A DNA stretch of 64,000 nucleotides from Brachyspira aalborgi (GTDB lineage: Bacteria > Spirochaetota > Brachyspiria > Brachyspirales > Brachyspiraceae): contig NZ_SAXU01000001.1 in NCBI RefSeq assembly GCF_008016455.1, positions 2,128,423 through 2,192,422 on the forward strand, written 5' to 3'. Positions 27,307-44,823 of this stretch are shown in pieces (positions within the stretch are counted from its first letter, which is position 1; each line of letters starts with the position of its first letter). Under the pieces are notes generated by a model. It did not search any database and was not told the DNA's origin. It was given only the letters and a program-made list of their open reading frames with translations. Position numbers and translations under genes: made by a program.

Positions 27307-28560
27307 ATGAATTATACTTTAGAAGAATTAGAAAAAACTTGGAATTTCTACGATAATTCCGCAAAAGAAATTATAGACAATGCGGTTGATGTTTCTTTCA
27401 AATTTATTAACGAAGATATGCTTCAAAGGTATGAAGAATATATTGAAAAGAATAATTTTGAGGATAATGAAGATTTCAATATTTTTGAGTTAATGTCGGA
27501 TAAATTCTATAGAGAAAATTTTCATTCGTATATAATCGCTCAATTACTTAAAAGCAAAATTATATTAAAAAATTTTCTAAAGTTTATCAAAGTTAACGAA
27601 ATCGTATATATTAATAACGGTTATGATGTTATTCCCGAATATTCTATAAAACATGAAATAAAAGACGGAAGAATTGATATTCTTATAAAATCGAACGATA
27701 AAGAAAATAACGAAGACGAAGAAAATAAAGAAAAACCTCATTGCATTATAATTGAAAATAAACTTCACGGAGCTAAAGACGAAGAAAGGCAATTATATAG
27801 ATATTTCATTGCATGCAGTGAAAAATTTGAAGTAGATAAAATAGTTTACTTATTGCCTAATTTAGATAAAAAGAATAAACCTGACGAACAAAGTAAAGAA
27901 GGAATTCCAAAAGAATTGATAAAAATTATAGTAGGTTATAATGGAGAAAATAAAGATTTTCATGCCGTTTTAAATTATAGTTTGGAAGAAGTAAAATCAA
28001 ATATAGAATGGCATTTATTATTAAAACATTATTTAAAAATTTTAAGATTAACGGGAGAAACAAAAATGGATGCATTAACTGAAAAATTTTATGACAATAT
28101 TAAAGCCAAACCTGAAGAATACAAGAAAATTCAATTAATAGCGACTATGTATAACGATTTGATAAAAACTCGCATTGATTATTTTGCTAAAGAATTTAAC
28201 GGAGAAAATTATAAAAATGAGTATTTTTGGCGATATTTTTATAGCGAAAAAAGAAAAATGGATTATTGTTTAGAAATTTATATGTATAATAATTATAGTC
28301 GGTTACAATTATTTTCAGGAGAAGAAAGAACGGCTACGGATGATAATCCTAAATCTACAAAGAAATGGGAACAAGACAATAAAGATATAGAAGCTTGGCT
28401 TAAAAAACATAAATTATTTGACGGCTTTTATTTTGAAGATTGGAGATGGTATAAAGGATTTAAATTCCCTGAAGAAGAAAATAAATTATACGAATTCACT
28501 AAAAAATTAATAAAATGCTTGGAAGAAGATGTCGAATCGATTTATAATAGCGGAAAATAA
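27307..28560 (+). CDS. PD-(D/E)XK superfamily nuclease, PDDEXK_4 type
   Basis: The 417-residue protein carries the nuclease core GRIDILIK (Asp124), then CIIIENKLHGAKDEERQL with Glu150, Lys152 and Gln162, and a following tyrosine-rich helix. This is the PDDEXK_4 (PF14281-like) arrangement. The C-terminal half contains an aromatic domain (FYFEDWRWYKGFKFPEE) found in related proteins. Members are often near mobile or defence genes, and their targets are not known. It has its own promoter. An acidic insert (KENNEDEENKEK) separates Asp124 from the ExK motif. Confidence 0.8.
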   Translation: MNYTLEELEKTWNFYDNSAKEIIDNAVDVSFKFINEDMLQRYEEYIEKNNFEDNEDFNIFELMSDKFYRENFHSYIIAQLLKSKIILKNFLKFIKVNEIVYINNGYDVIPEYSIKHEIKDGRIDILIKSNDKENNEDEENKEKPHCIIIENKLHGAKDEERQLYRYFIACSEKFEVDKIVYLLPNLDKKNKPDEQSKEGIPKELIKIIVGYNGENKDFHAVLNYSLEEVKSNIEWHLLLKHYLKILRLTGETKMDALTEKFYDNIKAKPEEYKKIQLIATMYNDLIKTRIDYFAKEFNGENYKNEYFWRYFYSEKRKMDYCLEIYMYNNYSRLQLFSGEERTATDDNPKSTKKWEQDNKDIEAWLKKHKLFDGFYFEDWRWYKGFKFPEEENKLYEFTKKLIKCLEEDVESIYNSGK

Positions 28561-30102: not shown

Positions 30103-31484
30103 ATGGCTAAAAGTTTAACTAAAGAAGAAAATATATTATTAACTTTAATAAACGCTTTTAAAAATGACGAAAAAGAAAAATTAAATCATTTAGGAAATAT
30201 TTCTAAATCTTTAATTGAAGTTAGAAAAAAAGTTAAAGAGGAAATGGAAAAACTTCCGCCTCAATTTAATGTCTTTAATTTTATTAATTTGTTAAATCAT
30301 GAAAATTATAATAGCAATTTATTCGCTAATTTTTTGGATATAAAATTTAAACATAACGGAAATGAAATCGGTTTCGCTAAATTATTTTTGAAATATATTA
30401 CCGAAGAATTCGGATGGGAATTTGATTTAGAAAATATTAAAATCGAAGACATAAAAATAAAACGGGAACTTTCAACCGAAGAGCTAAAAAGAATAGATAT
30501 TTTTATCGGTTATAAAAAAGAATTTGCGATAATTATAGAAAATAAAATTTGGGCTGATGACGGTTATAAACAGCTCAAAAATTATTATAATCATGTAAAA
30601 AGCCAAGAATACGATAAAATATATATAATTTATTTGACGCCTTATGAAAGAGAACCGAGCGAAGAAAGTTTGAGTAAAGAATTGTATAAAAAAGAAGGAA
30701 GCGAACTTTACGGCAAATTTAAAAATATAAAACATGAAGAAATAGGAAAATGGATTAACAAGAAAATATTAAAAAATGAAGAATTTTCTTTTTTGAATAT
30801 TGAAAGCAAAGACAATAAAAATGATTATAAATTATTAAAATCGGCGCTTATACAAATAATAAATAACGAATTAAGTATAAGTCAAGGAGATAAAATGACA
30901 GAAGGAAAAATTAAAAAAATTTTAGAGGAAAATATTTTTAAGGACATTAAAACCGTTGAGGATGTAGACGAATATATTAATATGTTTAAATCTCAAGTGA
31001 TAGGGCTTCTTGAAGAGAAAAGGGTAGAAATTGAAGCTGAAATTGAAAGAGAAAATCGAAAAGTTATTATAGATAAATTTTTTCCCCATTATTTGAAATT
31101 TACAAAAGATGTAATTAAAGAATTAGAAAAGCAAGGTTATAAAAAAGGTAATTTTTATGCTCCAAATAAAGACGAATATATCTTTACTGATAATGAATGT
31201 CCCATTGATAGTAGTTATTTTTTAGGGCTTGGAAGTGTATTCTTACAAAGTGACTGCGAAGATAATTCTATAATATGTCGTTTGGGTATAGCAGAAGAAG
31301 AAGATAAAAAAATCAAATAATTAAGAAAAAACAACTAAAAGTTTCTATTGAAAATATATTTGGATATTTTAAATATGACGAAAATGACGTGTGGATTTTT
31401 GTTTATTATATAAATACAGAAAAAGATAATCCACAAAAAATTGCAAAAGCGATGATTGATTTATACGAATTACTTAAAGAATAG
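30103..31484 (+). pseudogene. PDDEXK_4-type nuclease gene with a C-terminal frameshift
   Basis: The first 405 codons encode a nuclease of the same class as 27307: RIDIFIGYKKE (Asp132), IIIENKIWADDGYKQL (Glu146, Lys148, Gln157) and a matching YYNHVKSQ helix. The frame closes at TAA 31318-31320, just after a seven-A run at 31305-31311. Adding one A there opens another 55 codons to TAG at 31482-31484. Those codons encode a sensible C-terminus (FGYFKYDENDVWIFVYYI), giving about 460 residues. The core nuclease is intact, so a shortened protein may still be made. The run could be a reversible slippage site, a true mutation or a base-call error. Confidence 0.75.
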
Positions 31485-31871
31485 ATTAAATAATTTTATT
31501 AAAAACGATTTAAATAATTAAAATTGAAATATAATTTTTATTTTGTAATTTGAAGCGTTGGAAAATTTAATTTTAAATGTGAATTGTTATGCTTCACTTT
31601 TGGAATGAAGGTTTGCAATGACTAGAAAAATATGATTACAAGAAAAAGCGTTCAAGGTGGTTAAGTCCACTGTTATCAATAAGGTTAATAATTTCTATGG
31701 CAAGGGAATATAATTCCATAAATTCTAAAATGTTAATTTTATTGATATTTTTTATTTAATAAAAAATTTGTCATCGCGAGCGATAGCGTGGCAATCCAAA
31801 TTAAACGAAGTGAAACAAAAGACTCTATTAAACAAATAATTTTTTCTTTTGTTATCAAAAAAGAACTCCTA
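31485..31871. other. Gene-free stretch with dispersed-repeat remnants
   Basis: It contains a CACTTTTGGAATGAAG-GTTTGCAATGAC piece (near 31600-31622), a GGTGGTTAAGTCCAC hairpin near 31653, a GGGAATATAATTCC palindrome near 31703 and a GTCATCGCGAG...GTGGCAATCC repeat end at 31770-31797. No coding region is supported. Confidence 0.5.
31770..31797. repeat. Degenerate end of the dispersed GTCATYGCGAG repeat
   Basis: GTCATCGCGAGCGATAGC followed by GTGGCAATCC, then AAATTAAACGAAGTGAAAC. Similar ends occur at 23590 and 34502. Confidence 0.6.
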
Positions 31872-31952
31872 CTAAACCCTAAACTCCAACTCATAACCAA
31901 TAATAAAATCCATCTCCTCCTCCGTCAAACCATAAAGCGGACAAATCAACCT
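31872..31952 (-). pseudogene. Remnant 1 of a DNA methyltransferase C-terminus
   Basis: On the minus strand, 26 codons end in TAG and read RLICPLYGLTEEEM then DFIIGYELEFRV. This LYGLTEEExxFI pattern is typical of the last residues of Eco57I-class/type IIG DNA methyltransferases. No methyltransferase body precedes it. Four further copies (32536, 33147, 33792, 36266) separate the small modules of this region. The family link is pattern recognition, not a search result. Confidence 0.6.
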
Positions 31953-31972
31953 ATTTATAATTATTTATTTAA

Positions 31973-32248
31973 TTAAAATAAATCGCTATGAGAACCTATA
32001 GCAATGCATACGAGTATTAAAGCGTTATTTTCTTTTTTGTATATCAAAAGTAAATCGGGTTTTATATGGCATTCTCTAAAACCTGCATACTTTCCAATTA
32101 ATTTATGGTCTTTATATTTTGATTCTAATATTTCGTTATTTGCTAATTTTTTAATTATATTTCTTACAAGATTTAAACTATTTTTATCGTTTTTTAATTT
32201 CTTTAATCCTTTCCTAAATTCTTTAGAATATTGAACTTCGTATTTCAT
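31973..32248 (-). CDS. YafQ-family ribosome-dependent mRNA interferase toxin 1
   Basis: The 91-residue RelE-superfamily toxin has the YafQ catalytic set: His48 in KYKDHKL, His61 and Asp65 in ECHIKPDLLLIY, His87 and terminal Phe91 in GSHSDLF. These match His50, His63, Asp67, His87 of E. coli YafQ. It should cleave mRNA in the ribosome A site unless bound by its antitoxin, whose stop overlaps its ATG by 4 bases. The C-terminal 52 residues are identical to toxin 2 at 33249, while the N-terminal part differs. Confidence 0.9.
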   Translation of the reverse strand: MKYEVQYSKEFRKGLKKLKNDKNSLNLVRNIIKKLANNEILESKYKDHKLIGKYAGFRECHIKPDLLLIYKKENNALILVCIAIGSHSDLF

Positions 32249-32451
32249 TTCAAAATATCCTCAAACATTTCGTCAACATTTTTATAAGTTTTATATTTAT
32301 GAGGATTTTTTTCCATATATTTTGCTTCTTTAAGCCAAGCGGGAATTTTTTCTTTCGTTATCTTAATTTCTGCATTTGCAACTTTTACTATACTTTTTAT
32401 AGCTTTTATCAAATCTTCGTTAGCGTTTTCTATAGTTAATTTTACAGTCAT
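32245..32451 (-). CDS. Antitoxin of YafQ module 1
   Basis: The 68-residue product starts MTVKLTIENANEDLIKAIKS, a short strand plus helix as in ribbon-helix-helix or DinJ-like DNA-binding N-termini. It continues into a Lys-rich toxin-binding tail ending NVDEMFEDILK. The order antitoxin then toxin, with ATGA overlap, is typical. Its first 20 residues and upstream 70 bases are identical to those of module 2, but the C-terminal half differs. The leader with AGGGAGAAAAT is likely the autoregulated operator. Confidence 0.85.
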   Translation of the reverse strand: MTVKLTIENANEDLIKAIKSIVKVANAEIKITKEKIPAWLKEAKYMEKNPHKYKTYKNVDEMFEDILK

Positions 32452-32535
32452 TATTTTCTCCCTATAATTTGAATTTTATTTATTAACAAATTATACAATT
32501 TACAAACCAATAAGTCAATTTTTATTTTCCGCTTA

Positions 32536-32616
32536 CTAAACCCTAAACTCCAACTCATAACCAATAATAAACTCCATCTCCTCCTCCGTCAAACCGTAAA
32601 GCGGACAAATCAAATA
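32536..32616 (-). pseudogene. Remnant 2 of a DNA methyltransferase C-terminus
   Basis: This is the best preserved copy: 26 minus-strand codons ending TAG and reading YLICPLYGLTEEEM then EFIIGYELEFRV. It lies between the YafQ-1 antitoxin and the YoeB module. The near identity to remnant 1 at DNA level indicates recent duplication. Confidence 0.6.
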
Positions 32617-32685
32617 TAAAATCTGCGTTAATAAATAGTTGATTTTAAAACTCTAAATTGTATAATTATAAAAAAGGAGAGACTT

Positions 32686-32859
32686 ATGACGATTAAAGAA
32701 GAATTAATTCAAATTATAGACAAAATGCCTGAAGAAAATATTACAAGAGTTATAGAATTGATAAAAGCGAGCGAATATCTTGACGAAGCGCTCGATATGG
32801 AAAATAGCGGAAAATTAATAACGAAAACTATCGAGGAATTAGAAGAATTTGAAAAATGA
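32686..32859 (+). CDS. Antitoxin-like partner of YoeB
   Basis: The 57-residue acidic protein (MTIKEELIQIIDKMPEENIT...) has an AAAGGAGAG site and overlaps the yoeB start by 4 bases. It does not look like YefM, the usual YoeB antitoxin. Instead the N-terminal helix IQIIDKMPEENI resembles DUF2281-like small antitoxins. The antitoxin role follows from position, size and overlap. Confidence 0.75.
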   Translation: MTIKEELIQIIDKMPEENITRVIELIKASEYLDEALDMENSGKLITKTIEELEEFEK

Positions 32860-33116
32860 AAATAGTTTTTAACGAAAGGGCTTGGGAAGAATATATTTAT
32901 TGGGTTAATAAAGATAAACATATCGTAAAAAAGATTAACGAATTAATTAAAGATATAATAAAAAATCCCTATAGCGGAATAGGAAAATCCGAAAAATTAA
33001 AATACGATAAAAAAGATTTCTATTCGAGAAGAATTAATTTGGAACATAGATTGGTTTATCATATAGAAAATGAAAAACTAATTATTACTTCATGCAAATA
33101 TCATTATGATAAATAA
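32856..33116 (+). CDS. yoeB: YoeB-family mRNA interferase toxin
   Basis: The 86-residue toxin matches Txe/YoeB throughout, with WEEYIYW, KKINELIKDI, GIGKSEKLK, FYSRRINLEHRLVY and the tail CKYHYDK. The catalytic Glu46, Arg65, His83 and Tyr84 fall at the same positions as in E. coli YoeB. It cleaves translated mRNA at the start codon region. The module is opposite in direction to the YafQ modules on each side. Confidence 0.93.
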   Translation: MKIVFNERAWEEYIYWVNKDKHIVKKINELIKDIIKNPYSGIGKSEKLKYDKKDFYSRRINLEHRLVYHIENEKLIITSCKYHYDK

Positions 33117-33146
33117 AAAATTATTCAGTAGTTAATTGTATTCTGC

Positions 33147-33228
33147 CTAAACCCTAAACCCAAACTCATAACCAATAATAAACTCCGTCTCATATATAAG
33201 TTAAATCATACAAATGATAAATCAACCT
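33147..33228 (-). pseudogene. Remnant 3 of a DNA methyltransferase C-terminus, frameshifted
   Basis: The copy reads RLIYHLYDLTYI, then a TGA and a frame change, then TEFIIGYEFGFRV and TAG. It is the most decayed copy and sits between yoeB and YafQ toxin 2. Confidence 0.55.
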
Positions 33229-33248
33229 ATCTATAATTATTTATTTAA

Positions 33249-33515
33249 TTAAAATAAATCGCTATGCGAACCTATAGCAATGCATACGAGTATTAAAGCG
33301 TTATTTTCTTTTTTGTATATCAAAAGTAAATCGGGTTTTATATGGCATTCTCTAAAACCTGCATACTTTCCAATTAATTTATGGTCTTTATATTTTGATT
33401 CTAATATTTCGTCATTTAAAAGTTTATTTATAATTTTTTTAGTAATTTCTTTATCTTTTTGATTTAATTTTTTGTATTGTTTTCTAAATTTTGACGATGG
33501 CTTAAATCTATACAT
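33249..33515 (-). CDS. YafQ-family mRNA interferase toxin 2
   Basis: This 88-residue toxin has the same catalytic residues as toxin 1 (His45, His58, Asp62, His84, Phe88). From EILESKYKDHKL to the end the protein is identical to toxin 1, and the DNA differs by very few bases. The first 35 residues (MYRFKPSSKFRKQYKKLNQK...) are unrelated in detail. Its ATG overlaps the antitoxin TAA by one base (TAATG). Confidence 0.9.
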   Translation of the reverse strand: MYRFKPSSKFRKQYKKLNQKDKEITKKIINKLLNDEILESKYKDHKLIGKYAGFRECHIKPDLLLIYKKENNALILVCIAIGSHSDLF

Positions 33516-33706
33516 TATAAATCTTTCTCAAACTCTTCAAAGTTTTTATATGTTTTTAAATTGTCTTTTTCTTTTTTATAAGATTTTATAGCTTTATCTA
33601 TTCCTTTTTCTTCTATTTTTAATTTTGATTTAGATATTTTAGCCATACTTTTTATAGCTTTTATCAAATCTTCGTTAGCATTTTCTATAGTTAATTTTAC
33701 AGTCAT
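33515..33706 (-). CDS. Antitoxin of YafQ module 2
   Basis: The 63-residue product has the identical MTVKLTIENANEDLIKAIKS start of antitoxin 1. Its C-terminus is different (KSKLKIEEKGIDKAIKSYKK...). The divergent half pairs with the divergent N-terminal half of toxin 2, as expected if the interaction surfaces were exchanged as one block. The upstream region is identical to module 1, so both may bind the same operator. Confidence 0.85.
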   Translation of the reverse strand: MTVKLTIENANEDLIKAIKSMAKISKSKLKIEEKGIDKAIKSYKKEKDNLKTYKNFEEFEKDL

Positions 33707-33791
33707 TATTTTCTCCCTATAATTTGAATTTTATTTATTAACAAATTATACAATTTACAAACCAATAAGTCAATTTTTATTTCCCACTTTA

Positions 33792-33862
33792 CTAAACTCC
33801 AACTCATAACCAATGATAAACTCCATCTCCTCCGTCAAACAATAAAGCGGACAAATCAACCG
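33792..33862 (-). pseudogene. Remnant 4 of a DNA methyltransferase C-terminus
   Basis: It reads RLICPLYCLTEEM then EFIIGYELEF, but the final RV-stop has been lost, and one codon is missing in the EEE run. It lies between YafQ module 2 and the DUF4160/DUF2442 pair. Confidence 0.55.
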
Positions 33863-33959
33863 ACATAATAATTTAATATTTATAAACTATTCCATTTTAA
33901 ACTATTTATAATTTTTTTTAATATGTTAAAATATATTTATCAATTTAGAGGATAGCAAA

Positions 33960-34214
33960 ATGCCCGTTATATCAAGATTTTATGGAATTATAATAAAAAT
34001 GTATTTTCAGCAGAAAGAACATAATCCGCCGCATTTTCATGCAATATATGGAGAATATGTCGGCGTAGTGGATATTAACGAATTAAAAATTATAGAAGGC
34101 GATTTACCAAGCAAAGCGTCTTCTATGGTTTTGGAATGGGCGAAAAATAATCAAGCAGAATTATTAAATATATGGCAAACGCAAAATTTTAAACAATTAG
34201 AACCTTTGGAGTAG
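33960..34214 (+). CDS. DUF4160 family protein
   Basis: The 84-residue protein begins MPVISRFYGIIIKMYFQQKEH and has HNPPHFHAIYGEYVGVVDI, the DUF4160 signature with a HxPHFH histidine cluster. It ends with the conserved VLEWAKNNQAELLNIW. Such proteins are nearly always paired with a DUF2442 protein and are regarded as toxin-antitoxin-like. The mechanism is unproven. GAGGATAGC serves as its ribosome binding site. Confidence 0.88.
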   Translation: MPVISRFYGIIIKMYFQQKEHNPPHFHAIYGEYVGVVDINELKIIEGDLPSKASSMVLEWAKNNQAELLNIWQTQNFKQLEPLE

Positions 34215-34216
34215 CT

Positions 34217-34459
34217 ATGTCGTTTCATAAAATAAAAAATGTAGAAGCTTTAGACAATTTTACTTTACAAGTTTTATTTGAAAGCGGAGAAAAACGATTT
34301 TACGATTTAAATAAACTTATAGAAGTAAATAAAGATTTTGAAATATTGAAACGAGATAAAAATTTATTTAAATTGGTAAAAATCGATATTCAAGGTTATG
34401 GCATTTATTGGAACGATTATTTAGATATATCTTGCAATGAAATTTATTATAATAATTGA
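34217..34459 (+). CDS. DUF2442 family protein
   Basis: The 80-residue protein has the DUF2442 pattern: VEALDNFTLQVLFESGEKRFYDL, then GYGIYWNDYLDISCNEIYYN. It starts 2 bases after the DUF4160 stop with GGAG inside that gene, so the two are coupled. It is probably the partner or antitoxin of DUF4160. Confidence 0.88.
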   Translation: MSFHKIKNVEALDNFTLQVLFESGEKRFYDLNKLIEVNKDFEILKRDKNLFKLVKIDIQGYGIYWNDYLDISCNEIYYNN

Positions 34460-34501
34460 AAAATAAAATATTTAATATATCTTTTTTATATAAAAAAATT
34501 A

Positions 34502-34550
34502 GTCATTGCGAACCTTTGTCAACGGCACACAGAGTGAGGCGTAGCAATTC
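34502..34550. repeat. Degenerate end of the dispersed GTCATTGCGA repeat
   Basis: GTCATTGCGAACC followed by GAGGCGTAGCAATTC and AAACTAAACGAAATAAAG. It closes the toxin-antitoxin array on its right side before the next operon. Confidence 0.55.
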
Positions 34551-34602
34551 AAACTAAACGAAATAAAGTAACCTAATTTATATTAATCTATATTATAATT
34601 TA

Positions 34603-35337
34603 TTAATACTTGCTTCTCTTTTTTGTATAAATATAAAATATACATATAAATATAGCTCCAGCCATAGCTATATAGGATATTATAATGCATATATAAGAAA
34701 TTAAATATAACCTTTTTTCATAATATAGAGTAATACCAAGACAAAATATAATAAGAGAATTTGTCATAGCGTAAAAAATATTTAGTAAATAGGAAAAAGA
34801 AGAAATATGCTTTCTTTTTTTAATTTTAAATCCAGCTATCCGTGCTGATACTTGTATTTTATCTAATTTTTCTTTAATCAAATTGCTTTTTGATGTTAAT
34901 TCAAATTGAATTATAAACCTATCATTTTTATTTAAAAGTATTTTATCTAATAAAACTTTATTATCTTTCATTTTTAAATTAACATCTAAATCGTCAGGGT
35001 ATTTTTCTTTAATTATTGCAGATAATATATTTATGCTCTCGTCAAAAACAATAGAAATATTTTTATCGTAATCTTCAGGTTTAATTTCGCTATTACATGC
35101 ATTATCAATTTCAATTATAACTATATATATATTATTTATTTCTTTATCAGAATAAAATATTTTTATATTTTCGCTATTGGTAATTAATAAATTATTATAT
35201 ATAATTCTATATGATAAAATTTTTTTCTTTCTACTTATAAAAATACTTACAATAAGAATTATAATGCTACTAAAAAGACTTCCAACTATTGTTGAAATTA
35301 ACGGATTGTTTGATATTGTAGAAATAATATTATTCAT
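34603..35337 (-). CDS. Membrane protein, second gene of an unrecognised operon
   Basis: The 244-residue protein has one N-terminal transmembrane helix (about residues 14-34) followed by a basic RKKK stop. A soluble beta-rich middle domain spans residues 45-175, and two C-terminal helices (about 188-240) end with a basic tail. The topology suggests a membrane effector or anchor with a cytosolic domain. It starts 10 bases after the helical protein gene at 35348, so they should be cotranscribed. I recognise no family. Confidence 0.65.
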   Translation of the reverse strand: MNNIISTISNNPLISTIVGSLFSSIIILIVSIFISRKKKILSYRIIYNNLLITNSENIKIFYSDKEINNIYIVIIEIDNACNSEIKPEDYDKNISIVFDESINILSAIIKEKYPDDLDVNLKMKDNKVLLDKILLNKNDRFIIQFELTSKSNLIKEKLDKIQVSARIAGFKIKKRKHISSFSYLLNIFYAMTNSLIIFCLGITLYYEKRLYLISYICIIISYIAMAGAIFICIFYIYTKKRSKY

Positions 35338-35347
35338 AATAAATACC

Positions 35348-35947
35348 TTATATTAAAACTTTTGAAACTTCCCCTAAATATGGTAAAATCGCTATTCCTA
35401 CTTCAAAACCTTTATCAATAATATATTTTAAAACTTTAAATACTTTTTCTTTTGCTTTATCTTTATTTTCTTCTTTTAAGGTTTCAATAGAATATAAGAT
35501 TTCTTCCAAATATTCTTTAGCTTCTTTATCTAAAATATTATCTGGTATTTTATTTATATCTTCTATAGTCGATTTAATCGTTATATTTTGATTTATTGAT
35601 GCATTTGAAGTATTATTATTTTGATTATTTATATTTATGTTTTGCTGATTTGTTTGATTTTGCTTTTTTTGTGTATTATATTCGTCTATTAATTCTGCAC
35701 GGTAAACTTCCAATTTTGAAATTAATCCTTCAAGACGATTTAATTGCAAAGGTGAATTGGCTTCTAACATAGAGATAAATCCTGTATCATATTCATCGTA
35801 TTGTTTTGTATTAAAATGTTTAGTCCCTTCATAAGCTTTTTTAATTTTCTTTATTTGACTTTCCGCTTCTTTTGGTTTCTTTTTGTATAAAATATTTCTA
35901 CATTCTTCAATATGTTCTTCTAATTTTTTTATTTTTTCATTTGACAT
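35348..35947 (-). CDS. Helical protein with Asn/Gln linker, first gene of the operon
   Basis: The 199-residue protein has an N-terminal coiled-coil-like domain (1-105). An Asn/Gln-rich linker (about 106-135, TNQQNININNQNNN) follows, then a C-terminal helical domain with PDNILDKEAKEYLEEILYSI and a hydrophobic tail GFEVGIAILPYLGEV. The C-terminal pattern (PxxILDxExKExL...ALLPYL) resembles domains I associate with abortive-infection and other defence-linked proteins, but I cannot name a family. It lies within the accessory island, so a defence role is inference. ATG is preceded by GGGGAATTTTA. Confidence 0.6.
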   Translation of the reverse strand: MSNEKIKKLEEHIEECRNILYKKKPKEAESQIKKIKKAYEGTKHFNTKQYDEYDTGFISMLEANSPLQLNRLEGLISKLEVYRAELIDEYNTQKKQNQTNQQNININNQNNNTSNASINQNITIKSTIEDINKIPDNILDKEAKEYLEEILYSIETLKEENKDKAKEKVFKVLKYIIDKGFEVGIAILPYLGEVSKVLI

Positions 35948-36076
35948 TAAAATTCCCCATTTGTATTATAATTAATTTCACTATTATGCAATTATACTAC
36001 AAATAAAACATTTATCAAATTTAATTGCTATATACAAACATAAAAACAAGTATAATTATAATAACAAATTAAATAA
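35948..36076. other. AT-rich upstream region of the two-gene operon
   Basis: It probably holds the operon promoter on the minus strand. No clear hexamer pair was identified. With 36077-36770 it makes a gene-free stretch of 823 bases holding two methyltransferase remnants, a hairpin and the leader of the next gene. Confidence 0.4.
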
Positions 36077-36208
36077 TCATTCCCCTTCAATTATCTTTAT
36101 TTCCTCCTCACTTAAATCATATAACTTATAAACAATCTCATTTATTTCCTTTTCCTCTTTTTCAGTATCATTCCATTTAGCTTTACTCTTTACAACCGTT
36201 AACTTATC
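36077..36208 (-). pseudogene. C-terminal remnant of a second, distinct DNA methyltransferase
   Basis: A 43-codon minus-strand frame ends with EINEIVYKLYDLSEEEIKII, then EGE and TGA. This is the usual closing sequence of type II/IIG N6-adenine methyltransferases (IxxIVYxLYxLxEEEIxIIE). It has no start and no upstream body. It differs in sequence from remnants 1-5, so a second gene of this class was once here. Confidence 0.65.
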
Positions 36209-36265
36209 TTAATAACAATGTGGCTGTAGCCCATTGTGTGCCAATCTCATTTAGGCATCTATCAA

Positions 36266-36346
36266 CTAAACCCTAAACTCCAACTCATAACCAATAATAA
36301 ACTCCGTTTCCTCTTTACTCAAATCATACGAAGGACAAATCAACCT
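36266..36346 (-). pseudogene. Remnant 5 of the repeated methyltransferase C-terminus
   Basis: It reads RLICPSYDLSKEET then EFIIGYELEFRV and TAG. The frame stays open a little further upstream to about 36380 (ISKAIKNMH), so this copy retains slightly more of the parental gene than copies 1-4. Confidence 0.6.
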
Positions 36347-36770: not shown

Positions 36771-37934
36771 ATGGATTTTAAACTACCTAGTTTAGCATAC
36801 GAACAATTAAAAAAAATTATGATGGCTTGTGGGAAAAAAGATATAAATATGATAATAGAAAGGGATGAGTTATCAAGACAAACAGAAATAAATTCTGACA
36901 CTATAAGTAGAAATAATGCTTTTTTATTTTCTATAGGATTTCTTGAAAAGAATGATAATAATAAAAATATCATTACTGATATTGGATTAAAACTGGCTAA
37001 AGCCTATAATTTAGAAGACAATATTAAAATAAAAGAAATATTGATAAAAATGATAAAAAATAATAAAGATTTAAATGAATTAATATTTGCTCAATTAAAT
37101 AAAACGAATTTAACAGTAGAAGCACTTACTAATATAATTATTAATTATTTTGATAAACCAAGTAATCAATACGCTAAAATAGGAGCTAATACGCTATTAG
37201 AAATATTTAAAGAGGCGGAAATTATATCAATGGATAACAATATAATTATTTTTAATAAAAATGAATTTGAAAATTTTAATTTAGATGTTAAACATAAGGA
37301 TTTATATGATTATAATTATACAGCCTCTGAAATTAATAATAAAAATATTTTGAATATACCTATTAGTAATGATAATTTAAATATCAATATTAATATAAAT
37401 ATTGATTATGATACAAAAAGAAATCCAGCTGAAATATTAAACACTATAGAATATATATTAAATAATATAAATATTTATAATGCATATAAAGAAGTTAAAT
37501 CTGATAGCAAGCCTATAAATAAAAATATTGAAAATAAAAAAAATATAAAAAAGAAGAAAAACAAAGTAAAAAATGCTAATAGAAATGAACTAGAATATAT
37601 AGATATAGATAAGGAATTTGGGAAAGAAAAAATAGAAGAATGGATTAATTTTTACAAATCATTAGAAATTAATAGCGCTATAACCAGTGTTGTTATCACA
37701 GTATATTGGATATCAAAAAATATAAATGAATTATCTAATAGGATAAATGATGATTATGTATATTCTTTTTTAATAGCTGCTACTAATAATAATATAAAAT
37801 TTAAAGTATTCGATGCCATAAGTAATGCTAGTAGAAACACGAAAAAATTACTGCAAAGGGATGACGATGGATTAATAATTACAGGTATAGGCAATAGAGA
37901 AGTAGAAAATAATATTTTAATAAAAAAAGAATAA
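36771..37934 (+). CDS. Two-domain putative DNA-binding protein, defence-associated
   Basis: The 387-residue protein has an N-terminal winged-helix-like domain (1-65, with EINSDTISRNNAFLFSIGFLE). A helical middle follows, then a low-complexity Asn/Ile segment (about 195-215), a Lys-rich linker (about 250-275), and a C-terminal domain beginning KEKIEEWINFYKSL. The C-terminal pattern (VVITVYWISKxIxELxNRINDDYVYSFL, then SNASRNTKKLL) matches a helical domain I have seen at the end of uncharacterised phage-defence and regulator proteins. A strong AAGGAGG precedes the ATG. Base composition is more AT-biased than in core genes. No family name is claimed. Confidence 0.6.
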   Translation: MDFKLPSLAYEQLKKIMMACGKKDINMIIERDELSRQTEINSDTISRNNAFLFSIGFLEKNDNNKNIITDIGLKLAKAYNLEDNIKIKEILIKMIKNNKDLNELIFAQLNKTNLTVEALTNIIINYFDKPSNQYAKIGANTLLEIFKEAEIISMDNNIIIFNKNEFENFNLDVKHKDLYDYNYTASEINNKNILNIPISNDNLNINININIDYDTKRNPAEILNTIEYILNNINIYNAYKEVKSDSKPINKNIENKKNIKKKKNKVKNANRNELEYIDIDKEFGKEKIEEWINFYKSLEINSAITSVVITVYWISKNINELSNRINDDYVYSFLIAATNNNIKFKVFDAISNASRNTKKLLQRDDDGLIITGIGNREVENNILIKKE

Positions 37935-38274: not shown

Positions 38275-41200
38275 TTATTTACTTTTTCTCTGTTCTATCA
38301 AATTTATAAATTTATTATTTATAAATTCTTTTTCGTTTTTATTTAAACCTATGCTATCATAAATAACTTTATCAATTTCTTTATGGTGTTCGGTATTTAT
38401 TTCTTTATCGTATGTTAATATATTTAAATTTTTAGTTTTGTTATATATTAATGTAGCTAATTTTAAATCAATATCAAATACGCAAGGTATATTTTGTAAA
38501 TCAAAGGCTTCCGCTTTTAATAAACCTCCGCCTAAATTATTTCTTCCCGTAATTTCTCTTAAAAACCAACCTAAAGTTGAATTATAAAATAACCAAATAC
38601 TTAATAAATTTTTATCTTTTAATTCTTTTATATTATTAGAATTATCGCTTTTTAAAATTTCAACATAACTATCTGAATATGAATGAATTTTATTAAAACA
38701 ACAATAATGAGAATATGCAATACCTCTTGGCATTATAAAAATTGGCGGTGTTCGTTTAGTTTTAAGATTATCTATTTTATTTGATGATTTTGTAAAAGTA
38801 AAACTTGGCTTTTCTTTATGATAAAAATGAATATTGCCTTTTGAACTAACTTTATAGCCATTTAAACCTTGTCCATATTTTAACCCTATTTTATCTATGG
38901 TTAAACCTTTTGATAGTTTTTTTAATATTGATAATAAAATATCTAATTCTTCCGTAAATAATATATTCCATTTATAATTTAGCATTAAATTTTTATCTCC
39001 TATAGAATAAGAATATAATTCATTATATTTTGCAAAATTTTCTCTAAAATATTTTAATGTTAAATTAGTTTTATTATCATAATGGAAAATACTAATTATT
39101 GTATTAATTGCAGCGGTGCTAAAATGTTTAAAATCAGTATCTATTAATGTTATATTTAAATTTTGTTCTATTAAAAATTTTTGAAAATTTATTCCATATT
39201 TTGTAGAAAGCCAAGAATTAGTGCAAACGAAAGTTATAAATCCATTTTCATTTATAAGTTGCAAAGATTTAATATAAAAATATAAAGATAAATCCATGCC
39301 TTTACCTAAAAGTTTTTTATTTTTATGAAAATTAATTAATATATTATTTTGATAGTTTTCTTTCATACTATCAGAAAAAATTTTACTTCTCGCTTCTAAA
39401 TAAGGCGGATTGCCAATAACAATATCAAAAAACTTTGTCCCAAATTGAATCTCGCTATCAAAAAAGTCTGTCGATTTATTTTCAAAAGGATTCCAAGATA
39501 AAAATTTTTTCTTATCTTCCGCTTCCAAATAATCATTATTAACTATAAAGTCTCTCAATTCTTCAAATCTATATTTTATATTATTTTTATTTTCTTCTGA
39601 AGAAGCGTTAAAATAATCTTCCGAAATTGATTTTATTTTTTCTATTATGCCGTCAACATACATTGAATTAAAAGATTGTTGAGTATTATTTTTTACTTCA
39701 AGTGGCATAAGGCTATTTGCTGATATAAAATTAAATTCCAAATTAGGCAAAGGTTTTATTCCCAAATTCTCTTCACTTTCATTTTTCTCTTCTTCCACAA
39801 TTAAAGACAAAAATGCCCTCAATTTGCTAATCTCAATCGCAATCGGTTGAATATCTACTCCATGAATCATATTTTGAAGTATATAAAGTTTATAAGCGTA
39901 ATCAAATTTTTTTGATTCGTAAAGTTTTTCAAATTCAATTTTAGCTTGTCCTTTAATATTTTTAAGTAATAATTCTTTATAAAATTCATGATTTGGGTCT
40001 AATTTATCTATAATCATAAAAGTTCTTTGCAATATTCCGATTGGAAAAGCTCCACTGCCACAAGCTGGGTCTAATATTTTTATTTTATGTAAAACTGATA
40101 ATAATTCATATATTTCTTTTTTACCTAATTTTATATCTTCATTAGAATTAAATATTTTTTCTATTTCTTCTTCACTAATATTTTTTGTATTATTTTGTAT
40201 AGATAGTCTTACACTTTCTTTAACCATGTAATCTACTATTTCTCTTGGTGTATAGAATGTTGAATTGCCTATATTCAAATTTTCATTAGTATCTATTGCT
40301 ACAAGAAGATTTTCAAATATTCTCCCAAGCATTTCAGGGTCAATAGAAATTTCAATATCAAATGGCGTGCTTTCATCTACAGTAAAATTATATTTTTCAA
40401 AAAATTCAAACAATTCTTTTATTATTTCATTATCAATAGTTTTTACTTTATAATCTTCTTCTTTCTTTAAAAATAATCCGCCGTTTAAAAATGGAATTTG
40501 TTTTTCGTATTTATTAATTATTTTACTTTCAATTTTTCTCTCTTCCATTTTTACATTTAATATATTAAAAAATAATTCCTCCAAAACTTCTTTATAATAA
40601 TTATCTTTCGTTTTCATTTCGCCAATATTTATAAAATCAAAAATTTCTTTCGGTATCAAATCTTTCTCTCTCAAAAACCAACAAAAAAGCGCCCTTCCTA
40701 AAAACCTTAAACTAAATTCTTTTGCTGAAAGCAAGCAGTCGCTAGCTAAAGCTTCACCTTCTTTATTTTCACTTGATTTGTTTCCGACAAAATTCTTCAA
40801 AACATCTTTACAAATCTTATCAAACAACTCTTTAATTCCCTTATAGAATTCTTCGTTGACGGGTTCTACGCTAAAAGCTTCTTCAATTTTCTTAACGCTT
40901 GAAAACGCTTCTTTATTTAATCTACTTTGCGCCGTTTTTACTTTCGCTCTTTCTCCAAGTAAATAAGTAAATCTCTTCGGGTCGCTCAAATCTTTTTTCA
41001 CTTCAAGATTTTCATTTACCTTTTTATCATATTTCACATAAGAAATTCTATAAGCTTTTTCATTTTCATTAGAATATAAAATAAAAAATATTCCTTTCCC
41101 GAAAGAATTTCTATTTCCGCTTTTTATAATATCCGTGCATATTTTAGAAATTTTAACTCTGCTTCCCGTTTTAGTATTTTTTATTCTAATCTCATAAACT

Positions 41201-41400
41201 CCGATATCTTCATCGACATTTAAATTGCCAAGCCAAATTATCGCGTCGTTATTTGAATCATCCAAACAATCAATATATTTTTCAATTATGCTATTTTGAT
41301 TAGGAATAGAACCGTATTCATATTTAAAATTATCTCCTAAATATTTAGTCCATTCTTCCCTGCTATATTCTTTATCAAATCTAAAAAAATCTTTACTCAT
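38275..41400 (-). CDS. Eco57I-class N6-adenine DNA methyltransferase
   Basis: The 1041-residue protein has the SAM-binding motif I LDPACGSGAF at 443-452 and catalytic motif IV NPPY at 664-667, typical of gamma-class adenine methyltransferases. The N-terminal 350 residues hold the helical region (LGRALFCWFLREKDLIP). The C-terminal 300 residues should form the target recognition domain, with GNPPY-distal RNNLGGGLLKAEAFDLQNIP. The N-terminus shows no clear PD-(D/E)XK triad, so cleavage probably depends on the adjacent helicase protein. The pair recalls the DrmMI/DrmD part of class 1 DISARM and split type ISP enzymes. A hexanucleotide array lies in its upstream region. Confidence 0.88.
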   Translation of the reverse strand: MSKDFFRFDKEYSREEWTKYLGDNFKYEYGSIPNQNSIIEKYIDCLDDSNNDAIIWLGNLNVDEDIGVYEIRIKNTKTGSRVKISKICTDIIKSGNRNSFGKGIFFILYSNENEKAYRISYVKYDKKVNENLEVKKDLSDPKRFTYLLGERAKVKTAQSRLNKEAFSSVKKIEEAFSVEPVNEEFYKGIKELFDKICKDVLKNFVGNKSSENKEGEALASDCLLSAKEFSLRFLGRALFCWFLREKDLIPKEIFDFINIGEMKTKDNYYKEVLEELFFNILNVKMEERKIESKIINKYEKQIPFLNGGLFLKKEEDYKVKTIDNEIIKELFEFFEKYNFTVDESTPFDIEISIDPEMLGRIFENLLVAIDTNENLNIGNSTFYTPREIVDYMVKESVRLSIQNNTKNISEEEIEKIFNSNEDIKLGKKEIYELLSVLHKIKILDPACGSGAFPIGILQRTFMIIDKLDPNHEFYKELLLKNIKGQAKIEFEKLYESKKFDYAYKLYILQNMIHGVDIQPIAIEISKLRAFLSLIVEEEKNESEENLGIKPLPNLEFNFISANSLMPLEVKNNTQQSFNSMYVDGIIEKIKSISEDYFNASSEENKNNIKYRFEELRDFIVNNDYLEAEDKKKFLSWNPFENKSTDFFDSEIQFGTKFFDIVIGNPPYLEARSKIFSDSMKENYQNNILINFHKNKKLLGKGMDLSLYFYIKSLQLINENGFITFVCTNSWLSTKYGINFQKFLIEQNLNITLIDTDFKHFSTAAINTIISIFHYDNKTNLTLKYFRENFAKYNELYSYSIGDKNLMLNYKWNILFTEELDILLSILKKLSKGLTIDKIGLKYGQGLNGYKVSSKGNIHFYHKEKPSFTFTKSSNKIDNLKTKRTPPIFIMPRGIAYSHYCCFNKIHSYSDSYVEILKSDNSNNIKELKDKNLLSIWLFYNSTLGWFLREITGRNNLGGGLLKAEAFDLQNIPCVFDIDLKLATLIYNKTKNLNILTYDKEINTEHHKEIDKVIYDSIGLNKNEKEFINNKFINLIEQRKSK

Positions 41401-41565: not shown

Positions 41566-44500
41566 TTATTTAAAAAACTCTTCCCTTACTACCAAAATAG
41601 AATCTTTCAAATAATCGCTTTCAATATAATTAATATAATTAAGCGAACTATAATCTATTATCTTTTTAATCTCTTTAAGTATCTCAATTCCATTATTATT
41701 CTTAAAAGCTTTTTCAATATTCTTAATTTGTTTTTCAGTAAAAATATTATATTCAATTCCCTTAATAATTTTTTCAATATATTCTCTATCATTTAAAGAA
41801 ATTTCAAGCCCCATAATTTCTTTATATCTTTCAAGTTTAAGTAAAGCGTCAGGTTTATAATTAATCTTTTTAATATTTTTTCTTCTCTCAAAATCGGCAA
41901 TTAAACTTTCCGCTTTATCGCTCGGCTTAAAAGATTTTTCATTTTCTTGCGCTTTCAAAATCTTAAATATATTTGCCATATTATAATCCATAACAGAATT
42001 TTTTAATAATCCTCCAAATATTCCGTTTTCTCCTTTTCTTATTTCAACAAGTCCGTTAAAATCGTTTTCTCTTCTTATAAAAATATTATCCTTCATATTT
42101 TTAATTTCTTCCAAAAGATTATTATCTTGATTTAATTTATTGTAAATCTCTCTATATTCAATATCCCAACTTATATCGTTTTCTAAATCCGAAATAATTC
42201 CCGCTTCTCTTTTCAAAGAAAACAAAGAATTAATTTCATCGTCTTTTTGAAGTATTTTGGTGTCGTTTCCAAAAATAGAATTAATTAAAGTAAGTTTGAA
42301 ATTAGAAATCTGCCAATTTTTAATATCTTTTTGAGCTTCTAATCTCGGAATAAAATTGTGAATATAAATTTTATCAAAAAGTTTTTTTCCAATTCTATTT
42401 ATTCTTCCAACTCTCTGAATAACTCTCGTTGGATTATAAGGAATATCATAATTTATAATTATTCCCGCTCTATGCAAATTAACTCCTTCCGAAAGCGTAT
42501 CCGTAGATATAAGTAAAAAATATTCGCTCTCTTGTTTTCTCTCTTCAAGCGATGCGTCAAAATTCGCTTTAACAGTTTCTCTATTTTTTGAATCTGCAAC
42601 CGATTTTAAAGGTTTGAGTAAATAATTTAATTCTTCGTCTTGGCAAATCGATTCATATAAATAATCGACAGTATCTTTAAACTCGCTGAATATAATTATT
42701 TTTCTTTTGTCGTTTTCTTTTTTGAATTTTTTTAATTCTTCTTTTAATTTGAAAAACTTTTTATCTTTTTCAATTCCTATATTTTCCCAATCTTTTTTAA
42801 TCTCTTTAAGTATTTTTAAATCGTTTTCAAAATCAATAAAAAATTCCTTGCTTAAAACTTCTTTAACATTTTCTATTATATAAAGTCCTTCGTATTTTTT
42901 AGAATTATCTTTTATCATTATATCGTTATCATCGTCATAATCTTCGTAATTTACATCGCCTCTTTTATAAATAGTATAGCGATTTTTACTAATCCACATT
43001 TTTATGTTTTCGTATTTTGCAATCATATTGTCTACGCTTTTTTTAAATGCAAAAATAGAACTTTCAAATCTCCTAACAAGTAAATGCCTCATAAACTTTG
43101 CAATATTATTTGAAGACAAATCGGCAAAATCAAAATTCGCATCCTCTCCGTAAACCGCTTTAACAATTTCCGCGCTTTTCCTTTTATCTTCTATCGTTTC
43201 TTTTTTCAAATAAATTAAAGGCTTATATCTAACGCCCTTAAAAATATTAGAATTATCTTTATTGTCTTCGTTATCTTCGTTATAAGGACTTATTTTTTCT
43301 AAAGTGTCGTAATATAATTTTGATAAATCTCCAAGCTCATAATTATGAAGTTTCGGCTCTTCCACATCGTTAAATTCCGTTTTCTGTTTTTCTAAATCTT
43401 TTCTATATTCCGAAGATTCAAGCAAATCGTTTCTCGTTCTTCTTATTATAATAGTATGTATTAAACTCATTATTTCTTTTGCTATCTCTTTACTTTTTTT
43501 AATATTCTCTTCTTTTGAGTTTTCAGATTTTTTATATTTCGATTTTAATTCTCTCTCTTCTTTTAATATTTTAATTTTTGCCTCTTCAATATTTTTATTT
43601 TTAGTAAGCTTTCTATCGAAAATATCAATTATTGAAAATATATCGGAAGTCGTATTATGCATAGGAGTCGCCGTAATTGCTATAACTTTATTACCAAAAC
43701 ATATATTAGTTATCATATCATAAGAATAAGTTTTATTATTTACAAATCTATGAGCTTCGTCTATTATAATTAATCTATTTTTTCTATGATTTCTTACATG
43801 TTCTAAAGCTTTATCTAAAAGCCCGATACTAAAAACTTTAGCTTTAATTTGAAATTCGATATTATAATTTTCCCAAGAATCTATTATTTTAGGCGGACAA
43901 ATAATAATTATCTCTTCTACTTTTTCTTTTAATAAAAGATTTTTCGCTATTGCAGAAGCGATTATACTTTTTCCCAAACCTACTACATCGGAAATTAGAA
44001 CTCCGTTATATAACATAATTCCGTTTATTCCGCTTTTTATAGCTTCAATTTGATATTTATAATCTCTATAACCATAATCTGCAGGCGAACATAATAATTC
44101 TTCTCTATTAATAAATTCAAAATATTCGTATATAACTTTAAGAAATATTTTATAAGGCAAACCGAAATCGTCTTTATCTTTTTTATCTTCTTTAGTCGGT
44201 TTAATAATATTTCTAAAGAATTCTTCTTCATTTTTATTATTTAGAATTTCATGAGCTTTATTCCATTCTTCTTCAAAATAATTATAAAGTTCGTTAAAAC
44301 CGTCTTTACAATATATATTAAGTTCTTTTCTGTCTTTAATTCCGCGATGCGTAAAATTACTTGAGCCTATTAAAAAAGCGTTTCTTTCCGCTTCTTCGTT
44401 GTATTTAAATAAATATAATTTAGCATGCATATATTCCGCCGTTTTTCTAATTTCAAGAGTTTTATTTTCGCATTTATATTTAAATAATTCTATTATTGAA

Positions 44501-44823
44501 GAATATTCTTTATTTTCAGTTAAAGTAAATTCTTTAAAATCGCTTATAGCTTTATCGTTATCTTTATTATCATTAAAATATAATCTTCTTGTTTTGTTAT
44601 CTATATTCATTCCGATAAGTATTTTTACTTTCGCATTTAAAAATATATTTCTTGCATTTTCATTTTTAATTATATACGAAAATACTTCATAATAACAATA
44701 AGCGGTTAATATGCAAATTTCTTTTATATTATGAATATCGTTTTCATTATCAATATTATAAAACTGTTTTTCAAAATATTTTAGCAAACTTTTTGATTCT
44801 TCCGAATTATCGACTAATATCAT
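41566..44823 (-). CDS. PLD-SNF2 helicase, probable restriction and translocation subunit
   Basis: Residues 1-200 form a phospholipase D-type nuclease domain with HAKLYLF (His133, Lys135) and GSSNFTHRG (153-161). The remainder is an SNF2/SF2 ATPase: Walker A DVVGLGKSIIA, motif II LIIIDEAHRF, motif III ITATPMHN and motif VI RVIQRVGRINRIGKK. The total of 1085 residues fits helicase-related proteins paired with Eco57I-class methyltransferases. Expected role: translocate along unmodified DNA and cut through the PLD site. Only one HKD half is seen, so it would need to dimerise. The gene lies 165 bases upstream of the methyltransferase gene on the same strand. Confidence 0.87.
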   Translation of the reverse strand: MILVDNSEESKSLLKYFEKQFYNIDNENDIHNIKEICILTAYCYYEVFSYIIKNENARNIFLNAKVKILIGMNIDNKTRRLYFNDNKDNDKAISDFKEFTLTENKEYSSIIELFKYKCENKTLEIRKTAEYMHAKLYLFKYNEEAERNAFLIGSSNFTHRGIKDRKELNIYCKDGFNELYNYFEEEWNKAHEILNNKNEEEFFRNIIKPTKEDKKDKDDFGLPYKIFLKVIYEYFEFINREELLCSPADYGYRDYKYQIEAIKSGINGIMLYNGVLISDVVGLGKSIIASAIAKNLLLKEKVEEIIIICPPKIIDSWENYNIEFQIKAKVFSIGLLDKALEHVRNHRKNRLIIIDEAHRFVNNKTYSYDMITNICFGNKVIAITATPMHNTTSDIFSIIDIFDRKLTKNKNIEEAKIKILKEERELKSKYKKSENSKEENIKKSKEIAKEIMSLIHTIIIRRTRNDLLESSEYRKDLEKQKTEFNDVEEPKLHNYELGDLSKLYYDTLEKISPYNEDNEDNKDNSNIFKGVRYKPLIYLKKETIEDKRKSAEIVKAVYGEDANFDFADLSSNNIAKFMRHLLVRRFESSIFAFKKSVDNMIAKYENIKMWISKNRYTIYKRGDVNYEDYDDDNDIMIKDNSKKYEGLYIIENVKEVLSKEFFIDFENDLKILKEIKKDWENIGIEKDKKFFKLKEELKKFKKENDKRKIIIFSEFKDTVDYLYESICQDEELNYLLKPLKSVADSKNRETVKANFDASLEERKQESEYFLLISTDTLSEGVNLHRAGIIINYDIPYNPTRVIQRVGRINRIGKKLFDKIYIHNFIPRLEAQKDIKNWQISNFKLTLINSIFGNDTKILQKDDEINSLFSLKREAGIISDLENDISWDIEYREIYNKLNQDNNLLEEIKNMKDNIFIRRENDFNGLVEIRKGENGIFGGLLKNSVMDYNMANIFKILKAQENEKSFKPSDKAESLIADFERRKNIKKINYKPDALLKLERYKEIMGLEISLNDREYIEKIIKGIEYNIFTEKQIKNIEKAFKNNNGIEILKEIKKIIDYSSLNYINYIESDYLKDSILVVREEFFK

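Follow-up and report, generated by a model that had tools for sequence, protein, structure and literature searches.

How does an array arise in which copies of one short coding remnant alternate with toxin-antitoxin and other small modules? This question was raised by a 64,000-nucleotide stretch of the Brachyspira aalborgi genome (contig NZ_SAXU01000001.1, positions 2,128,423 to 2,192,422), referred to here as the window, where a family of five minus-strand copies of about 80 bp, the tails, spans positions 31870-36343. A preliminary description of this DNA had taken the copies for the end of a methyltransferase gene and the whole for an integron-like cassette array. The array was found downstream of an intact gene of the same methyltransferase superfamily, and this arrangement is the key to the pattern. 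The reading that we favour, with a probability of roughly 65%, is that recurrent recombination at the 3' end of the methyltransferase gene swaps its specificity and stacks cargo, the leftover tails acting as homology arms.

Tails of a type IIG methyltransferase gene

The repeat family comprised two strong copies, one at 84% and two damaged ones, all of a kind designated type A. Copy 1 (31870-31949), ending in LICPLYGLTEEEMDFIIGYELEFRV before its stop codon, was 98% identical to copy 2 (32534-32613), and copy 5 (36264-36343) showed 84% identity. Copy 3 (33145-33224), diverged and broken, reached 60% over its full length and gave a weak match to the tail profile, its sole well-conserved part being the 45 nt at 33147-33191 (93%). 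Copy 4 (33780-33859), with small deletions, was 61% identical in ungapped and 92% in gapped comparison. The five start positions given previously were correct to within two bases of the repeat search, 33792 being the point at which the gapped homology of copy 4 begins. Minus-strand translation of copies 1, 2 and 5 yielded LICPxYxLxxEExxFIIGYELEFRV followed by a stop; copy 4 gave the same with one residue fewer and a shifted end, and the translation of copy 3 breaks off after LIYHLYDLTYI. Units measured from tail to tail were 0.6-2.5 kb long. An Rfam scan of the window from 20 to 50 kb gave nothing above the gathering score of any family. Absent from the earlier finding were a sixth, orphan tail of a second type (type B; 36077-36208, minus strand; tail-profile E 1.8e-11), which ends in INEIVYKLYDLSEEEIKIIEGE and a stop, and the intact methyltransferase gene at 38275-41400.

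A genome-wide search (E ≤ 0.001) detected seven type-A copies, namely the five of the window and two more at 1488797 and 1492772, and all seven sit at two methyltransferase loci. With seven copies detected, the tail cannot be put down to a chance match, nor is it dispersed over the genome; a selfish repeat of that kind was ruled out, every detected copy being at a methyltransferase locus. When 29 family genomes were searched, the 80-bp sequence occurred only in this one (seven places) and in Brachyspira catarrhinii (two places, one of them a weak match of 37 nt). In B. catarrhinii the type-A tail closes a methyltransferase frame of 798 aa, open at the start of its contig and ending in IDKIDRLICPLYDLTEEETEFIIGYELEFRV and a stop, which belongs to the same family as the window gene. 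Since this homologous frame ends in the tail, and PADLOC and Pfam name its homologues, the assignment to an Eco57I-class methyltransferase was confirmed: the type-A copies represent the 3' end of a restriction-methyltransferase gene of type IIG (Eco57I class). Exact matches to a 20-base core of the tail in named genomes were found in four contigs, one from B. catarrhinii and three from unrelated bacteria, the latter taken as chance.

The intact gene of the window (38275-41400, minus strand, 1041 aa) encodes a restriction-methyltransferase of this type and class, and every tail is downstream of it in the same orientation. It matched PF07669 (E 7.1e-23) and the PADLOC model REase_MTase_IIG (E 7.9e-72), without a match to PF12950 TaqI_C, and its C-terminal part is a different one. 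The gene of the second locus, L008 (P0002), matched PF07669 (E 3.4e-34), PF12950 TaqI_C (E 3.6e-16) and REase_MTase_IIG (E 6.2e-141). By their domains both belong to the fused type IIG kind, in which an Eco57I/TaqI-type methyltransferase domain and a C-terminal specificity domain form a single polypeptide; restriction and methylation activity is predicted.

A second locus and the arrays of relatives

Locus L008, 670 kb from the window array, holds the genomic copies 1488797 and 1492772, both downstream of another type IIG gene, and each of its type-A tails is followed by an orphan tail of type B. Its cargo includes an RT-Toprim gene, the same DUF4160/DUF2442 pair that is present in the window, and two genes without a Pfam match (one of them a weak PADLOC candidate). 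The copies thus do flank different modules, as the preliminary description had supposed, and one unit of tail and module is common to both loci: L008:8782-9509 matches tail 4 plus the DUF4160/DUF2442 pair (33792-34516) at 99.3% identity over 728 bp. The limits of this shared unit lie inside the tail at one end and inside the dispersed GTCATTGCGAACCTT repeat at the other (34502-34560, with a related copy at 31770), a repeat present at both loci in diverging forms. Such ends would fit ectopic homologous recombination between repeats. The twin tails (window copy 4 and its L008 counterpart) share a base that differs from six other aligned sequences. The methyltransferase genes of the two loci were 83.6% identical at the DNA level over 2012 aligned bases and diverge 6 bp after the NPPY codons.

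Two further observations concern these loci. The GTCATYGCGA repeat (31770, 34502), one copy of which ends the shared unit, occurred at eight places in the window with at most one mismatch, against 2.9 expected. An RT-Toprim gene (retron-like I-C; L008:9554-11245 and L059:3308-4003) lies in two species downstream of a type IIG gene, a different one in each; that of L059, cut by its contig, was 94% identical to that of L008 over 230 aa.

The tail profile used for the survey of relatives (A2) was built from 18 intact tails and sees 3' ends only. It gave 81 matches in 25 of the 29 family genomes. Frames of at least 640 aa were considered full and shorter ones truncated; the window gene was added by hand, its own tail being unlisted, and the full frames include one broken by a frameshift (G001) and one cut by its contig (B. 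catarrhinii, G002). Among the 44 truncated frames, 14 had no full frame on their contig, two had none nearby in the list (for one of these, an intact gene whose own tail was unlisted lies 1.5 kb away) and 28 had one within 25 kb. All 28 were downstream of the full frame and on the same strand. As they are grouped in 13 loci of 11 genomes, they do not represent 28 separate events. A full-length search (35 places, E ≤ 1e-20), which shorter N-terminal pieces would escape, found no isolated N-terminal fragment; the sole N-terminal-only frame, in G022, goes on in a different reading frame further downstream. Across 149 sampled genomes of the phylum there were 81 tail matches outside the family, with six truncated frames testable, five of them downstream and on the same strand.

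Arrays of relatives (L090-L095, L050, L052 and L058) run from a methyltransferase gene, intact in all but the frame-broken case of L095, to cargo, a C-terminal fragment and cargo again, the order being repeated in most. Nine of 20 scanned proteins in or beside these arrays had a Pfam match above the cut-off; the cargo families were RES, IrrE-type peptidase, NACHT C-terminal, HicA, reverse transcriptase, KAP NTPase, DUF1848, Mrr plus IrrE-type, and AIPR. Fourteen of 18 extracted fragments, those with a mapped start, were compared with six of eight intact genes (n = 20). In 93 of the 190 pairs a conserved 5' arm and a conserved 3' arm of about 200 nt enclosed a middle that could not be aligned, the specificity region; the remaining pairs aligned over the full length (17), in the 3' arm only (38) or in the 5' arm only (22), fitted none of these patterns (18) or gave no match (2). 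One fragment start was common to four fragments within one base and another to two, in addition to a more widely shared start considered below. Ratios of nonsynonymous to synonymous substitution (dN/dS) were 0.09-0.60 for 11 fragment/intact pairings and 0.24-0.61 for four intact/intact controls, ranges that do not separate silent but useful fragments from recently broken ones.

Inspected by eye, 16 of 16 fragments (of the 18) start where a dispersed hairpin repeat ends. This repeat consists of GTAATCAGCCGCAC, a spacer of 30-36 nucleotides and GTGCGG, followed by a small CTAC..GTAG hairpin, and was seen in L090-L097 and L056-L058 (for example L093:9869-9915); its exact pattern occurred in 18 of the 29 family genomes and was matched to no known element. 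As a cause of the array in the present genome (G000) it was rejected, there being no copy in the window or in L008 and no match to the exact pattern genome-wide.

The architecture of the window is that of L114 (G053:C127:1-12000), a locus from another family of the phylum. All its genes are on one strand, in the order intact methyltransferase, small open reading frame (ORF), PIN-like, tail, PIN-like, tail, PIN, DUF3800, tail and DUF3800. The small ORF had no Pfam match, and of the downstream PIN calls one was above the Pfam cut-off, one exactly at it and one just below. The tails of L114 were 91-95% identical to the 3' end of the resident gene, plus flank, over 113-175 bp.

Modules and neighbouring genes

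In the window, copies 1 to 4 enclose YafQ (minus strand), YoeB (plus) and YafQ (minus) modules, and the DUF4160/DUF2442 pair (plus), a two-gene operon and copy 5 follow. The alternating modules described previously were in agreement with Pfam, the YafQ (twice) and YoeB (once) toxin families matching above the curated cut-off. YafQ module 1 (31973-32451) consists of a toxin at 31973-32248 (PF15738, E 2.1e-31) and a small ORF at 32245-32451; the YoeB module (32686-33116) of a toxin at 32856-33116 (PF06769, E 1.3e-32) and a small ORF at 32686-32859; and YafQ module 2 (33249-33706) of a toxin at 33249-33515 (PF15738, E 9.7e-30) and a small ORF at 33515-33706. The three small partner ORFs had no Pfam match above the cut-off and are called antitoxins by position. 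DUF4160 (33960-34214, 84 aa) and DUF2442 (34217-34459, 80 aa), both Pfam calls, may form a toxin-antitoxin pair. Eleven of the 16 DUF4160 copies in the family genomes lay within 5 kb of an intact or orphan methyltransferase tail when the places were compared by hand, the other five being on contigs without a listed tail; the pair looks like a long-term resident of such arrays.

The two YafQ modules are repeats of 91-92% identity at a spacing of 1.26-1.28 kb. They are alike at both ends and differ in the middle 200 bp or so, which covers the N-terminus of the toxin and the C-terminus of the antitoxin. This is possibly the region of contact between the two proteins, and the part that recognizes the partner seems to have been exchanged as a block. 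This genome has a third YafQ relative (65% identity; 2464430-2464696 of G000:C1). Some 13 kb upstream of it, in the same orientation, is a frame of 1201 aa that ends in a methyltransferase tail.

The two-gene operon (34603-35947, minus strand; 244 and 199 aa) and an ORF of 387 aa between the methyltransferase gene and tail 5 (36771-37934, plus strand) had no Pfam or PADLOC match. The methyltransferase gene is adjoined by a PLD/SNF2 helicase gene (41566-44823, minus strand), relatives of which (51-61% identity) stand beside a methyltransferase in L045, L046 and L048. On the other side of the array, the ORF at 30103-31320 matched PDDEXK_4 and the PADLOC candidate PDC-S26; that at 27307-28560 resembles it by eye, with leucine-rich-like repeats between the two.

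Formation and meaning of the array

According to the favoured reading, the 3' end of a type IIG gene would be a recurrent site for the exchange of specificity-domain DNA and short defence modules. With every exchange the old 3' end, truncated at its 5' edge, would be stranded behind the working gene in the same orientation, so that repeated events would produce an array of tail, module, tail and module. The tails could then serve as short homology arms with which ordinary homologous recombination copies or duplicates whole units of tail and module, from one position or locus to another. Of the specificity regions nothing would be left in the window, where the last 25 or so codons stand alone, five times. 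How the events were ordered, the leading part of RecA-type homologous recombination and whatever benefit the cell may draw are our inferences.

Several observations weigh against this reading. Five junctions on the 5' side of type-A tails, with different neighbours, cluster within about 20 bp (by eye), and seven fragments from four other species have one common aligned 5' start with differing specificity regions. Neither free homologous nor illegitimate recombination would predict clustering this sharp, which hints at a preferred site. It is the 3' edges that are sharp at L114, the 5' edges being variable, so no single edge rule fits both lineages. Of the six testable truncated frames outside the family, one has the opposite orientation. 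The family has 23 other YoeB relatives, not one of them within 30 kb of a listed tail, many being on contigs without listed tails, and the YoeB module was therefore probably brought into the window array. Finally, the comparisons span loci and species, with one genome per species, which makes movement within the species a supposition.

It is because the breakpoints cluster that a site-specific process was kept alive, in which an unlinked recombinase would use the tail, or elsewhere the end of the hairpin repeat, as an attachment site and displace the old 3' end downstream, as islands integrating at tRNA genes do. The clustered type-A edges, the breakpoint shared by seven fragments of four species and the 16 fragments abutting the hairpin repeat speak for it; we nevertheless consider it unlikely, as no tyrosine recombinase was found for 160 kb around either locus (the genome-wide search did not extend to serine recombinases and transposases), both limits of the 99.3% unit fall inside repeats, in keeping with homologous recombination, and the 5' edges of L114 vary. 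The same scan for tyrosine recombinases bears on an integron. With PF00589, two matches were obtained in the genome, at 1326974 and 2384299, both more than 160 kb from both loci. Folding of two of the five tails as attC-like structures was weak whichever strand was taken (-1.8 to -2.4 kcal/mol; z -1.18 to -2.15). Integron cassettes mostly point one way, whereas the window modules run in both directions, and what is repeated is debris of a coding sequence. An actual integron-like array, with integrase and attC sites, can hardly be correct, even though short repeats alternate with small modules; as a mechanism the integron-like label found no support, and the array resembles an integron array in outline only.

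Duplication in place of a few tail-module units followed by mutation, without general mobility, is favoured by the similarity and spacing of the two YafQ modules. We regard it as quite improbable, given that the same tail borders unrelated modules, that one unit is common to a locus 670 kb away and that the genus has further arrays, with cargo of other kinds. Very improbable is the retention of tails for a function, as ribosome site or terminator of the next module. In some arrays the ATG of the cargo directly follows the tail stop, with a purine-rich stretch within the tail codons, and the repeated unit of L114 contains a terminator-like hairpin (by eye), but the ATG-after-stop arrangement occurred in 12 of 52 fragments and three of 25 intact genes vs. 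41 of 264 long control frames from the same loci, and in none of the window tails. The tail as a translation signal was rejected, with no clear enrichment over control frames.

A wider form of the favoured reading is possible but tentative: the 3' ends of spirochaete type IIG genes would be an integrase-free cassette platform, at which silent or circular units of specificity region, tail and defence cargo recombine through the NPPY-region 5' arm and the 3' tail, restriction specificity being replaced along with companion genes for defence or toxin-antitoxin systems. The window would then be a late stage, its tails remaining alone as landing pads for toxin-antitoxin modules.

Among known systems, a close one is the tandem accretion of islands at gene 3' ends, where the working gene keeps its 3' end intact and the fragments it has displaced pile up downstream in the same orientation. 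Such integrative islands carry integrases and large cargo, in contrast with the window units of 0.6-2.5 kb, none of which was found to carry an integrase. The small modules of integron arrays are often toxin-antitoxin systems. Chromosomal integrons share with the window an array of small modules; the window differs in having no attC-like fold, no near tyrosine recombinase, a repeat of coding debris and both directions. Among spirochaetes they are reported only in Treponema (PMC3607928). In the pneumococcal tvr locus (SpnIV), a type I restriction-modification system, specificity fragments reshuffle the specificity gene (PMC6265443). As described there, tvr is a single restriction-modification locus that contains such fragments together with repeats and a toxin-antitoxin pair, a combination like that seen here, and differs in its type, its own tyrosine recombinase TvrR and its circular forms (PMC6265443). 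The window locus is type IIG and has diverse modules; none of its 15 ORFs between 30.1 and 44.8 kb matched a recombinase, and the nearest tyrosine recombinase is about 215 kb away, serine recombinases not having been scanned genome-wide. Specificity fragments beside the gene, possibly silent, occur in the relatives; the window keeps tails only. Domain movement (DoMo) in Helicobacter pylori, the exchange of target recognition domains via conserved flanking sequence, is alike in exchanging specificity domains through conserved flanks; the part of that report drawn on here mentions neither accumulating 3' remnants nor interposed toxin-antitoxin modules (PMC3983042). A literature search, at the level of titles and abstract openings, gave no description of such tail-module arrays.

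Defence genes seem to be exchanged and stacked at the end of the restriction gene. This provides a concrete, testable anatomy of the growth of a defence island, in which remnants of the restriction gene record its replacements and supply homology for the movement of small modules. If the pattern is general, orphan tails would be usable as markers for ordering the turnover of defence genes, and a change of restriction specificity may go along with a change of the companion defence genes.

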